A DNA stretch of 64,000 nt, taken from the NCBI RefSeq assembly GCF_015222005.1, contig NZ_JADFFL010000002.1:310001-374000 (forward strand), written 5' to 3'. This document shows, piece after piece, positions 3,429-41,775 of this stretch. The notes below the pieces were generated by a model. The model was not told the origin of the DNA. It searched no databases and was given only the letters and a program-made list of their open reading frames with translations. The DNA comes from Mucilaginibacter myungsuensis. GTDB lineage: Bacteria; Bacteroidota; Bacteroidia; Sphingobacteriales; Sphingobacteriaceae. Every line of letters starts with the position of its first letter. Position 1 is the first letter of the stretch. The position numbers and the translations under genes were made by a program.

Positions 3429-3515
3429 GTTTTTGTCATCCTTGAGCTTAGCTAAGGATCGGGATGTTGGTGGGTGTTATCAATATCCGTGAAGGCATCG
3501 ATCTGCAACTCATCG

Positions 3516-3603
3516 GTTGCGCGTTTTGTAAAAAATTTCAAAACGCAAAAAAAGCATGTTTTTTTGATCAAAAACATGCTTTTAGCAGGGGTAAAACGAA
3601 CGG
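3516..3603 (-). repeat. 88-bp structured 3' element, copy A (contains terminator)
   Basis: Lies just downstream of the S8 peptidase gene and matches 34198-34285, downstream of the other S8 peptidase, at 79 of 88 positions by hand alignment. On the minus strand it contains a terminator hairpin (AAAGCATGTTTTT pairing with AAAAACATGCTTT, then seven T), a second hairpin GCGTTTTG/CAAAACGC and, just past the aligned part, a third GCAAC/GTTGC. See the findings for the compensatory substitution. Confidence 0.7.
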
Positions 3604-3616
3604 ATATTTGCAAGTC

Positions 3617-5203
3617 CTAATACGTTGCCGCCAGTTTCAAAGCTTCATAAGCGTTAACGATACCACCCGTTTGGCAGATATCACTGAACAATACTTTGCG
3701 TTTACCATCACCATTTTTAACGGTCACTTTATGGTCTACTTTTACTGCCGATTTCATTAGGATCTCCTTCACCTGAAGAGCGGTCAGTTTTGGGTAGTAA
3801 GAACGGATCAGCGCAGCCAGGCCCGACACTACCGGGGCCGACATGCTTGTGCCATCCTGCTCTTTATATTTTGAACCAGGCATGGTAGAGTTGATCTTTA
3901 CGCCCGGCGCATAAACATCCACCGTATTTTTGCCGTAGTTAGAAAATGGCGCGGCCAGCGTTTCATCATCGATATAGCCCGATGCGCCTATCTCTATCCA
4001 TGCGGCTGCTTCGCCACTTTTATCTTCATAAAATTTATTGGGGAAGCCCGGCTCTTTGTCGTTATCCTTTCCATCGTTGCCGGCCGAATGTACGATCAGT
4101 ACATCTTTGCTCATGGCAAATTTAACGGCATCATCTACAGCGGTTTTGTTGCTGGAGTAGCCTTTACCAAAACTCATGTTGATCACTTTGGCACCGTTGG
4201 CCGCCGCGTACCTGATAGCATTAGCTACGTCCTTATCGCGCTCATCGCCATTAGGGACGGTACGTACCGACATAATAGCCACATCGTCGGCCACGCCTTT
4301 AATGCCCAGATCGTTGTCCCGTACAGCGGCAATAATACCCGCCACGTGTGACCCATGGTCAGGTGCCGGACCTGCCGCGTCGCCTGTGCCATAATTGCGT
4401 TCGTTCACGTCGGCATAGTTATCGCCAACGGTATCGCGCGAGTCGAAATTGATATTGAAATGGTAGTCTAACTGCTCGCGGTAGTGCTTCATCGCGCCGT
4501 AGATCTCTTCTTCCATAAAGTTATTGAAGTCGCCGGTACCCCAATTCTCTAAGGCTATCTTTTGCAATTGAGTTTCCGCCGGGTCTTCGGGACTATAATC
4601 TGCAAATTGCTTTTTGCTTGGGTTGCGGGAGCCCATTTTGCTCACCATAGAGTTAAACTTTAAAGCTACGTTAAGCATATTGTTCGAGCTTTCTTTGGCC
4701 TTATCTATTTTGCCCTGCAACTCGGCCACCATTTTTTGATAGGCCTTATAAGCTTCCTTATCGGTTGGTGCGATGTTCTTGGGGTCTGCAAACTTGGCCT
4801 GGCCGAGGCGGATCTGGCGCACCAGTTCTAAATTATCATACTGGATACTGCCTTTGGCCGAGCCTAAAAAGCTCCAGCCGTGTACGTCGTCGGCGTAGCC
4901 GTTCTTATCATCGTCGGTGGTGTTGGCGGCTGTCTCTTTGGGGTTTACCCACATGATCTTTTTCAGGTCCTCGTGTTTGATGTCTACCCCGGCATCCAGT
5001 ACGGCCACAACTACCGGCACATGTTTTTTACCTTTCAGCAACTCGTTGTAGGCTTTTTCGGTACTGATGCCGAACTGCCCGTCAGCTTTCAGATCCAGGT
5101 TTTGCCAGTTAGGCAGCGGCGCTTTAATTTTTTGTGCCGACGAAAAAATAGGCGCGCAAATAGCTGCGCCCAAAAGCAATAGTTTAAAATGACGAGGAAT
5201 CAT
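3617..5203 (-). CDS. S8 family serine peptidase (subtilisin-like), secreted
   Basis: A 528-residue subtilisin-like protease with signal peptide 1-23 (cleavage after SSA). The catalytic triad is visible: Asp70 in VVVAVLDAGVD, His283 in DHGSHVAG and Ser453 in DGTSMSAP. Between Asp70 and His283 sits an insertion of about 200 residues, far longer than in classical subtilisins, with a calcium-loop-like DDDKNGYADDVHGW at its start and a mostly helical remainder. The protein lacks a recognisable propeptide. It is a paralogue of the gene at 32503-34146 with the same architecture. It is followed by a strong terminator in a conserved 3' element. Substrate and target are unknown. Confidence 0.93.
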   Translation of the reverse strand: MIPRHFKLLLLGAAICAPIFSSAQKIKAPLPNWQNLDLKADGQFGISTEKAYNELLKGKKHVPVVVAVLDAGVDIKHEDLKKIMWVNPKETAANTTDDDKNGYADDVHGWSFLGSAKGSIQYDNLELVRQIRLGQAKFADPKNIAPTDKEAYKAYQKMVAELQGKIDKAKESSNNMLNVALKFNSMVSKMGSRNPSKKQFADYSPEDPAETQLQKIALENWGTGDFNNFMEEEIYGAMKHYREQLDYHFNINFDSRDTVGDNYADVNERNYGTGDAAGPAPDHGSHVAGIIAAVRDNDLGIKGVADDVAIMSVRTVPNGDERDKDVANAIRYAAANGAKVINMSFGKGYSSNKTAVDDAVKFAMSKDVLIVHSAGNDGKDNDKEPGFPNKFYEDKSGEAAAWIEIGASGYIDDETLAAPFSNYGKNTVDVYAPGVKINSTMPGSKYKEQDGTSMSAPVVSGLAALIRSYYPKLTALQVKEILMKSAVKVDHKVTVKNGDGKRKVLFSDICQTGGIVNAYEALKLAATY

Positions 5204-32502: not shown

Positions 32503-34146
32503 ATGAATATAACCAAATACGCCGCCGGCATGGCTTTAAGTGCCGCCCTTTTTGCAAGCATTAACGTAAACGCTCAGTTTGTCCCTGCACCGCCACCCAA
32601 GCCATCGCCACAAAACTGGCATGCGCTGGATCTGACTACCGATGGCTACTACGGCGTCAGCTTGGCTAAAGCTTATGCCTTGCTGAAAGGCAAAAAAAGT
32701 AAGCCCGTGACCGTAGCTGTGATAGACAGCGGTGTAGACACCCTGCAAAAAGACCTGAAAAGCATTTTTTGGGTAAACACCAAAGAGATACCGGGTAACG
32801 GTATCGATGATGACAAGAACGGCTACATAGACGACATACACGGATGGAACTTTTTAGGCGGCCCGGGTGGCCAATGCGACCATAACGAGACCACCGAAGA
32901 GGTACGTGAATACAACCGCCTGAAAGGCAAATACCTTGGTGCGAACACTTCTACGACCGCCGATCCGAAAGAAGAAGCTTACTGGCAGCAGGTGCGCACC
33001 ACTTATGAAACGACGGTAAATAAATCGCGTGAGGAGTTGCAAGACTTGAAACCTTACATGAATATTTTGGTGGGTACCAGCGGCTTTATTAAACGCGAAC
33101 TGAAATTGAAGCCTTCGGATAGTTTTACCATGATGGATCTTGGCCGCATCACTACCCCTAACGACACGGTGCGTGAGTGCAAAAATGCCTGGATGTCGGT
33201 ATTTCAACAGCAGGGTGTAGAAAAAAGTAACGCTGATATCATTAAAGGCCTGAGTGAATATATCACCAAGCTAAGCAACGACGTTAACCCGGATCTGGAA
33301 GCCCGCAAACGCATTGTAGGCGATGACCCGAATAATTGGGAAGACAAAAAATATGGCAGCAACCAACTCAAATTCCCGGATGCGCAGCACGGGACAATGG
33401 TGGCAGGTTTTATTGGCGCTATGCGTGGCAACGGTTATGGCATTGATGGCGTGGCCGATAACGTGCGCATCATGGCTATCAAAGCGGTACCTAACGGCGA
33501 CGAGTACGATAAAGATATTGCCTACGCCATCCGCTACGCGGTGGATAATGGTGCTAAGATCGTTAACATGAGTTTTGGTAAAAAGCTGTCGCCGCATAAG
33601 GATTGGGTAGATGCTGCATACAAATATGCTGCCGAGCACGATGTACTGCTCATATCGGCAGCCGGTAACGACAATCAAGATGTGGACAGTAAAGCCGATT
33701 ACCCCAATGACACGTTTGCTGATGGCTCGGCCGCCGATGCCGACAACGTGATCAACGTCGGTGCATCGGGCCCTAAAAAGGATGAGACCCTGGCTGCCGA
33801 GTTCAGCAACTACGGTAAAAAGAATGTGGACGTATTTGCTCCGGGTGTTAAAGTAACTTCGGTAAATACCGACGGCGAGTTCAGTACAGAGGATGGTACC
33901 AGCTTTGCCTCGCCGATAACCGCCGGTATAGCCGCGCTGATCTTAGAGTATTACCCTACCCTAAGTTCAAAACAGATCAAGCAGGCCATTTTAGGTTCGG
34001 CCAAGCCATTGACTGGTGTAATGGTTTTGAAACCCGGCAGTAAAGAAGAGAAAGTTGATTTCGCCACCCTAAGTAAGACCGGCGGTGTAGTGAATGCCTA
34101 CGAAGCCTTGTTACTGGCATCGAAGATGAAGGGCGAAAGGAAGTAA
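32503..34146 (+). CDS. S8 family serine peptidase (subtilisin-like), secreted
   Basis: A 547-residue paralogue of the peptidase at 3617-5203. Signal peptide 1-24 (VNAQ). Catalytic residues are Asp75 (TVAVIDSGVD), His296 (DAQHGTMVAG) and Ser467 (EDGTSFASP). The Asp-to-His interval is about 220 residues and again starts with DDDKNGYIDDIHGW; the insert diverges strongly in sequence from the paralogue. Shared mature start (PNW/QNW-LDL) and shared 3' element argue for an old duplication. Processing target unknown. Confidence 0.93.
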   Translation: MNITKYAAGMALSAALFASINVNAQFVPAPPPKPSPQNWHALDLTTDGYYGVSLAKAYALLKGKKSKPVTVAVIDSGVDTLQKDLKSIFWVNTKEIPGNGIDDDKNGYIDDIHGWNFLGGPGGQCDHNETTEEVREYNRLKGKYLGANTSTTADPKEEAYWQQVRTTYETTVNKSREELQDLKPYMNILVGTSGFIKRELKLKPSDSFTMMDLGRITTPNDTVRECKNAWMSVFQQQGVEKSNADIIKGLSEYITKLSNDVNPDLEARKRIVGDDPNNWEDKKYGSNQLKFPDAQHGTMVAGFIGAMRGNGYGIDGVADNVRIMAIKAVPNGDEYDKDIAYAIRYAVDNGAKIVNMSFGKKLSPHKDWVDAAYKYAAEHDVLLISAAGNDNQDVDSKADYPNDTFADGSAADADNVINVGASGPKKDETLAAEFSNYGKKNVDVFAPGVKVTSVNTDGEFSTEDGTSFASPITAGIAALILEYYPTLSSKQIKQAILGSAKPLTGVMVLKPGSKEEKVDFATLSKTGGVVNAYEALLLASKMKGERK

Positions 34147-34197: not shown

Positions 34198-34285
34198 CCG
34201 TTCGTTTTAACCATACTAAAAGCACGTTTTTGTTCAAAAAAGCGTGCTTTTTTTGCGTTTTGAAATTTTTTGCAAAATGCGCAAC
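34198..34285 (+). repeat. 88-bp structured 3' element, copy B (contains terminator)
   Basis: Matches 3516-3603 (reverse complement) at 79 of 88 positions by hand alignment. The terminator hairpin AAAAGCACG / CGTGCTTTT with seven T is followed by GCGTTTTG/CAAAATGC and GCGCAAC/GTTGCGC hairpins, the last ending at 34297. Confidence 0.7.
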
Positions 34286-34336
34286 CCACGGTTGCGCGTT
34301 TTGCGGATCTGTTGCTACTGACGCCGTTTTTTGGCT

Positions 34337-34448
34337 GTCATGGTGAGCGTGTCGAACCATGGTGCGGAGGGTTCGACACTATGCCAGTGGCGACCATGCA
34401 CATCGGCCAAGCCCTGCGCACGTCGCTCTTCGACACGCTCAGGGTGAA
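34337..34448. repeat. GTCATGGTGAGC...GCTCAGGGTGA repeat, copy 1
   Basis: Starts GTCATGGTGAGCGTGTCGAA and ends TTCGACACGCTCAGGGTGA, with the outer arms complementary (TGAGCGTGTCGAA/TTCGACACGCTCA). Its interior also holds GGTTCGACAC. Homologous to 41561-41616 and 41664-41775. With the 88-bp element it fills the 368-bp gap before the phosphatase gene. Confidence 0.7.
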
Positions 34449-41519: not shown

Positions 41520-41560
41520 CATTGAGCGAAGCAAAGCGGTCTTGCCTATTTGTTTAGGCC

Positions 41561-41616
41561 GTCATGGTGAGCGCGTCGAACCATGGTGCGTTGGGCTGGA
41601 CAGGCTCAGGGTGACA
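41561..41616. repeat. GTCATGGTGAGC repeat, copy 2 (short)
   Basis: Shares the GTCATGGTGAG-CG-GTCGAACCATGG start and ends GGCTCAGGGTGACA, but the middle of the 112-bp form is missing, leaving about 56 bp. Confidence 0.6.
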
Positions 41617-41663
41617 GCCCTTGTCATTTACTTCAAAATCAAACAGATCTAATAACTCAGGCC

Positions 41664-41775
41664 GTCATGGTGAGCTTGTCGAACCATGGTGCGGTGGACT
41701 TGACACTATGCAAAGGCGACCATGCATATCGGCCATGCCCCGCGCACGTTGCCCTTCGACAAGCTCAGGGTGACT
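41664..41775. repeat. GTCATGGTGAGC repeat, copy 3 (full length)
   Basis: A 112-bp copy matching 34337-34448 throughout, with outer arms TGAGCTTGTCGAA/TTCGACAAGCTCA. Together with copy 2 it fills most of the 398-bp gap between the OstA-like and M1 peptidase genes. Confidence 0.7.

Follow-up and report, generated by a model that had tools for sequence, protein, structure and literature searches.

Species-specific families of intergenic stem-loops have been surveyed in 40 bacterial genomes, with 9 to 164 elements each (PMC2267715); the terms Bacteroides and Bacteroidetes have 0 occurrences in the accessible part of the survey text. Elements of the REP/REPIN type, which are associated with RAYT transposases, are small, species-specific extragenic palindromes and can act in termination and bind proteins, as described in the accessible parts of three sources (PMC2817692, PMC6006769, PMC3733652). 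The DNA uptake signal repeats of Neisseria and Pasteurellaceae offer a third precedent, a recurrent protein-recognised word at terminators; according to the accessible text, a genome contains about 1000 or more of these words, which themselves form the terminator stem (PMC1852404). The main text of a 2025 REP survey mentions Bacteroidota a single time, and Mucilaginibacter and Sphingobacteria not at all (PMC12306157). No description of Mucilaginibacter or Sphingobacteriaceae repeats of the sort reported here was found in the openly licensed literature.

The element of Mucilaginibacter myungsuensis described below is a species-specific intergenic stem-loop repeat family, a kind of which many have already been described. 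Like the families of PMC2267715, it is short, structured, intergenic, multi-copy and found in one species; unlike those families as the accessible text describes them, it carries an operator-like module. It shares with REP/REPIN elements small size, palindromic structure, extragenic position and species specificity, but no GTAG/CGTC foot was seen in it, and it comprises three hairpins, numbers only about 16 copies and has no cognate RAYT adjoining it. With the uptake signals it shares a recurrent word at terminators, although at about 16 copies and with the word beside the terminator. We assign a probability of roughly 0.72 to the whole reading: a species-specific dispersed intergenic repeat in which a terminator-type hairpin (H1) is followed by an AT-rich inverted repeat (H2) and then by a palindrome (H3).

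The genome comprises 5.09 Mb in 23 contigs, and the window, which is the whole stretch of 64,000 nucleotides that was analysed, is part of contig C2. None of the relatives covered is close: the best hit for a 5 kb segment of the window shares about 77% identity over 1.5 kb. Two Peptidase_S8 genes, whose closest relatives among named genomes are Mucilaginibacter proteins, each precede one copy of the element, and the features of the window are as follows (R2 is the full-length model described below).

32503 to 34146, plus strand: Peptidase_S8 gene (PF00082 match), neighbour of copy 1, outside the element
34198 to 34300, plus strand: copy 1 of the dispersed repeat, 3' of the S8 gene at 32503-34146 (R2 match 34205-34299)
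34218 to 34251, plus strand: H1 of copy 1, terminator-like hairpin with 14 pairs and a 6-nt loop, followed by a T run
34255 to 34280, plus strand: H2 of copy 1, inverted repeat GCGTTTTG...CAAAATGC
34281 to 34295, plus strand: H3 of copy 1, operator-like palindrome GCAACC-CAC-GGTTGC with a 3-nt loop
3617 to 5203, minus strand: Peptidase_S8 gene (PF00082 match), neighbour of copy 2, outside the element
3501 to 3603, minus strand: copy 2 of the dispersed repeat, 3' of the S8 gene at 3617-5203 (R2 match 3596-3501)
3550 to 3583, minus strand: H1 of copy 2, terminator-like hairpin and T run
3521 to 3546, minus strand: H2 of copy 2, GCGTTTTG...CAAAACGC
3505 to 3520, minus strand: H3 of copy 2, GCAACC-GATG-AGTTGC

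A sequence-only reading of the window had described an 88-bp structured element shared by the two S8 loci, and its description of the DNA was accurate. Global alignment of 34198-34300 (plus strand) with 3500-3603 (minus strand) yields 79 identities in the first 88 columns, both copies present H1, H2 and H3 in the same order, the first stem shows the reported T-A to C-G change (GCATG/CATGC versus GCACG/CGTGC), and the second stem, H2, differs by the single G-U change. The similarity ends after H3, and the next 300 bp beyond both copies give a local score of 12, against a mean of 11.1 and a maximum of 17 in 200 shuffles. On the gene strand, both copies fold better than 200 shuffles (z -4.0 and -5.0). 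The coding parts have diverged far more than the element, as had also been claimed: the two S8 proteins are 40% identical across 545 aligned positions. A duplication that included the coding part was rejected on this low identity and on the existence of other copies without S8 genes.

Two further observations concern the surroundings of copy 1. The right arm of its H2 can alternatively pair with GCGTTTTGC at 34297-34305, beyond H3, in a stem of 18 pairs that includes H3 (window 34269-34307). A second dispersed repeat, of the form GTCATGGTGAGC..GTCGAACCATGG, adjoins copy 1 as well as the copy at C2:241941 (locus L065), where it lies downstream of the element; repeats of this type occur in the window at 34337-34400, 41560-41588 and 41663-41691.

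The evidence for a repeat family comes from searches of the whole genome. With the 131-bp region as query, BLAST returned 14 matches at E <= 0.001. A covariance model of H2 and H3 built from 11 sequences (R1) gave 22 matches at E <= 0.1; as 14 of these reach E values under 1e-9, the match between the two window copies is not due to chance. The full-length model R2, made from 15 sequences, yielded 15 matches at E < 1e-10 and a sixteenth at 1e-6, followed by a weaker tail. There are thus at least 16 similar copies in one genome, as expected of a dispersed stem-loop repeat, each about 95-110 bp long. Weak R2 matches at C6:216721, C4:279510, C3:141856, C2:783244, C2:203493, C1:557128 and other places were kept outside this count; several of them, H3-type palindromes next to terminators of other origin, may be decayed members. 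Alignments were made with 15 copies, leaving out the copy at L081. Six of these copies, both S8 copies included, form class A, with a compact H1, while the other nine carry about 10 extra bases around H1. Pairwise identity in the aligned region varies between about 0.56 and 0.92.

All 16 copies are intergenic and lie beside unrelated genes by rough ORF calls. These calls (ORFs of at least 100 aa, accepting overlaps of as much as 30 bp, a tolerance that affects one copy) place five copies in convergent, eight in tandem and three in divergent gaps. At least one gene 3' end borders 13 of the 16 gaps, which locates the element often, and not solely, at gene ends. Genes other than S8 adjoin 14 of the 16 copies; among the neighbours are genes that may encode an EF-P-like protein and a dCTP-deaminase-like protein. 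That the element is a dispersed repeat is stated here with high confidence. The gene conversion between S8 loci that had been offered as one explanation is unneeded, given that copy 2 (L066, the copy at 3616) is as close to L065, beside unrelated genes (0.89), as to the other S8 copy, L072 (0.88), and that two pairs of non-S8 copies, at 0.92 and 0.91, are closer than the S8 pair. The association with S8 genes is accidental, since 14 of the 16 copies lie elsewhere and the element was found within 3 kb of none of 41 S8-orthologue loci of named genomes. A mobile terminator, the remaining earlier option, is borne out in that the repeat is dispersed and terminator-bearing; its movement and its ending of transcripts we infer.

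Outside this genome the element was looked for in samples drawn from 97,973 of 199,900 species. R1 gave three weak matches (E 0.0007-0.0034; G014, G036 and G056) in 59 relatives (36 of the genus and 23 of other families) and one weak match (E 7e-4; G164) in 148 other genomes of the genus. The H3 motif is absent from all four places, which were therefore dropped as copies. The covariance-model search of Sphingobacteriaceae proposed by the sequence-only reading covered 398 family genomes, some of them shared with the 148, and found no match at E 1e-4; the hits belong to the own genome, and most are not 3' of S8 genes. The large scans used stricter filters and scored the best candidates alone, a setting in which weak matches could be lost and in which the 14 strong own copies were recovered with only 15 candidates scored. 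In the genus and family samples, the element is restricted to one species or lineage.

The S8 orthologues of other species were also inspected. The lone pattern match among their loci, with 3 edits (L040), lies in a different structure. Other sequences, often other palindromes, occupy the 160 bp downstream of the S8 stop in 22 of 23 Mucilaginibacter-type loci (L043, at a contig end, was excluded from this reading). Some of these orthologues are followed by long perfect or near-perfect palindromes of the forms AGATTTGACAACTTTT/AAAAGTTGTCAAATCT and ACGAAGTTTT/AAAACTTCGT (L025, L026, L030, L034 and L042; L035, L036, L038 and L040), which are perhaps those lineages' own repeats.

In both window copies, H1 has a GC-containing stem and a T run and scores as a terminator, and an A run on the opposite side of H1 in copy 1 makes it potentially bidirectional. 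In copies with an intact H1, the S8 pair among them, terminator action is likely. Other copies lack an intact H1 terminator, as three class-B copies fold only slightly better than shuffles: on the element strand, their z values are -2.2, -1.2 and -1.8, against -4.0, -5.0 and -4.4 in three class-A copies. Three copies occupy divergent gaps, in which a terminator would serve no gene end, and these count against the preferred explanation. According to that explanation, the repeat would have spread by copying within the lineage, and at gene ends, those of both S8 genes included, H1 would work as a Rho-independent and probably bidirectional terminator, so that insertion there would be harmless or useful.

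H3, with the form GCAACY-N4-RGTTGC, is the most conserved part of the element, its arms being near-invariant and its loop free. For the five outermost positions, the mean minority fraction is 0.013 in one arm and 0.0 in the other, and it is 0.35 in the loop, compared with 0.09 and 0.08 in the arms of H2 and 0.24 in the H1 region. The H3 arms differ from the rest at P 4e-5 and from the H2 arms at P 0.002 (Mann-Whitney; rough values, as columns are not independent). As a control for the use of H3 in the searches, a model of H1 and H2 alone (R3) was run, which gave 18 matches at E <= 1; all 16 at E < 0.01 are known copies with H3. The conservation of H3 is not a search artefact, because R3 finds no copy without H3 at E < 0.01. 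H3 is kept as sequence. Its inner pair is C-G in seven, U-G in six and C-A in two of 15 copies, and 13 of the 16 copies hold the exact GCAACY-N4-RGTTGC.

The same palindrome recurs at promoters of ArsR-type regulators in the genus. There are 10 occurrences of GCAACC-N4-GGTTGC in the own genome, and 12 of 40 other genomes have a single one; of these 12 sites, four lie in ORFs and eight immediately precede an ArsR-type gene that has an AHSA1 (SRPBCC-type) gene behind it. Pfam HTH_20/HTH_5 and AHSA1 matches were obtained for the gene pair of the own genome and of one relative, and a relative that has the same operator encodes a regulator sharing 63% identity with the own ArsR-type protein. At nine of nine ArsR-type promoters (eight relatives and the own genome; 18 sites), two sites stand exactly 26 bp apart and enclose TATATTTG or a close variant. 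The inner pair of these 18 sites is C-G in nine, T-A in six, C-A in two and T-G in one. The exact GCAACYN4RGTTGC pattern has 21 occurrences in the own genome, where a reversed-pattern control has 0, and 0 to 7 in each of 148 other genomes of the genus. Among the matches listed, 19 of 31 other genomes have a pair 25-32 bp apart. Within 30 loci taken from those listed matches, the ArsR motif DPTRR follows the site by 56-65 nt in 11 of 11 paired loci and is found in two of 19 single-site loci. Of 21 unpaired sites inspected (in 20 stretches), 16 are in ORFs, two precede an ArsR or AHSA1 gene and three have no assignment. These positions suggest that, between genes, GCAACY-N4-RGTTGC is chiefly the operator of an ArsR-type regulator in Mucilaginibacter. 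No description of this operator was found in the openly licensed literature. Tandem operator loci were seen across the genus (L130, L132, L133, L135-L139, L079 and 11 more), mostly with a 26 bp spacing.

Of the 21 own-genome sites, 19 were placed: 13 in copies, two in the ArsR promoter and four beside other terminator-like hairpins. H3-type palindromes beside unrelated terminator-like hairpins lie at C2:203559, C3:141860, C4:279514 and C6:216725, those at C4:279514 and C3:141860 inside the 3' end of a gene. R2 matches the own ArsR promoter (39 bits, E 5e-4), while R3 has no match to it at E 1 or better, and this promoter was dropped as a founder copy of the family since R3, which lacks H3, does not match it. 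The element resembles the ArsR-AHSA1 tandem operator in its half-sites, in the freedom of its loop and, in most copies, in a GCG before the first half. Unlike that operator, it offers one site, has no TATATTTG box and stands next to a terminator instead of a promoter. The H3 of each element copy is a single site and not part of a tandem pair over a regulator promoter, and no such regulator gene adjoins the copies, the one exception being the ArsR promoter, which R3 does not recognise as an element.

In the preferred explanation, a DNA-binding protein would occupy H3, the likeliest candidate being the ArsR-type repressor encoded at about 342,900 of C4; the copies would then be extra promoter-less binding sites, acting as a sponge or a roadblock. 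Binding of H3 by an ArsR-type repressor is a possibility that we hold only tentatively, because the link was noticed post hoc and rests on about 11 specified bases, each copy is a single promoter-less site, and R3 makes no connection to the ArsR promoter. Its competitor, a coincidental identity of H3 with the ArsR operator in which the palindrome is kept through recognition by the copying machinery or through the youth of the copies, is somewhat more probable than not. The single, promoter-less sites, many of them at gene ends, and the post hoc nature of the match fit such a coincidence. It accounts less well for the fixed arms and free loop, as in a protein site, for an inner position that varies as Y and R independently in H3 and likewise in the operators, and for the scarcity of the motif elsewhere between genes of the genus, where 16 of 21 unpaired sites are in ORFs. 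More doubtful still is the further proposal of a selfish or domesticated repeat that spreads a repressor operator coupled to a terminator, whose approximately 16 promoter-less ArsR sites might titrate the repressor or serve as ligand-controlled roadblocks.

Regarding mobility, the element could be the truncated, non-autonomous relic (MITE-like) of a transposon of another type. The existence of two size classes differing by about 10 bp around H1, the variable left extents and the dispersal beside unrelated genes are compatible with this origin, which is nevertheless rather unlikely. In the alignments, where the boundaries are not sharp, no terminal inverted repeats or target duplications were recognised by eye, and no plasmid or phage match was obtained. 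A plasmid or phage origin was discarded on the same lack of matches.

It appears less probable than such a relic that the element is a REP/REPIN-like palindrome mobilised by a Y1 (RAYT) transposase. The element is indeed small, palindromic, intergenic, species-specific and multi-copy, and the genome holds two PF01797 genes (L091, C5:362595-362939; L092, C1:366739-366948). One of these Y1 genes has WQ and YIHNNP motifs like those of the Bacteroidetes subclass 2.6, which the accessible part of PMC6006769 describes as flanked by atypical structures. Against this mode of transfer, R2 has no match in the two Y1 loci of 3.2-3.3 kb, which hold other palindromes; no GT[AG]G or CGTC foot was seen by eye at H2 or H3 in the alignment; and the copies number only about 16. 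RAYT was dropped as the mover, both Y1 genes being without an adjoining element, and no mobilising enzyme for the element was found among the Y1 transposases of the genome. The flanks of L091 and L092 carry palindromes that differ from each other (GTAACCCCTACGGGG; TCCGGGATTGTAAATCCGGA), possibly the cognate repeats of the Y1 genes.

It remains to consider the structure as RNA, since the sequence-only reading had proposed a selected RNA element beside the S8 genes. In 15 copies, H2 and H3 have 92.3% of cells paired, against a shuffled mean of 92.9%, and none of their 14 pairs is changed on both sides, against a shuffled mean of 0.9; four of the six H3 pairs are invariant and uninformative for or against structure. 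In the six class-A copies, two of the 14 H1 pairs are changed on both sides, a number reached by 283 of 500 shuffles, while the covariation score is reached by 10 of 500 and the paired percentage by 20 of 500. This suggestive H1 signal gives weak support and is expected of any working terminator. Covarying stems, the mark of a cis-regulatory RNA, are thus missing in H2 and H3 and weak in H1, the latter in six copies only. Rfam returned 0 matches in the window at the gathering score and six sub-threshold matches at chance level (E 0.1-0.98). With copies beside unrelated genes and this lack of covariation, the S8-linked RNA reading fails by the refutation criterion that had been set for it. A cis-acting RNA, whether a regulatory or a stabilising 3' structure of S8 peptidase mRNAs, is therefore very improbable: the stable folds of both S8 copies, their one compensatory difference and the weak H1 signal speak for it, and the 14 copies beside other genes, the 41 S8-orthologue loci devoid of the element, the H2/H3 pairs and the Rfam result speak against it.

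What appeared to be a gene-linked RNA is therefore a genome-wide repeat family, which advises caution in taking the conservation of two copies as a sign of function. Should the ArsR-type repressor bind H3, this genome would offer a clear natural example of a dispersed repeat that brings a transcription-factor site to the ends of genes. If the roadblock reading is true, termination or antisense read-through at those gene ends would answer the ArsR signal. Furthermore, the tandem operator of the ArsR-AHSA1 operons leads directly to a prediction about that regulator throughout Mucilaginibacter.
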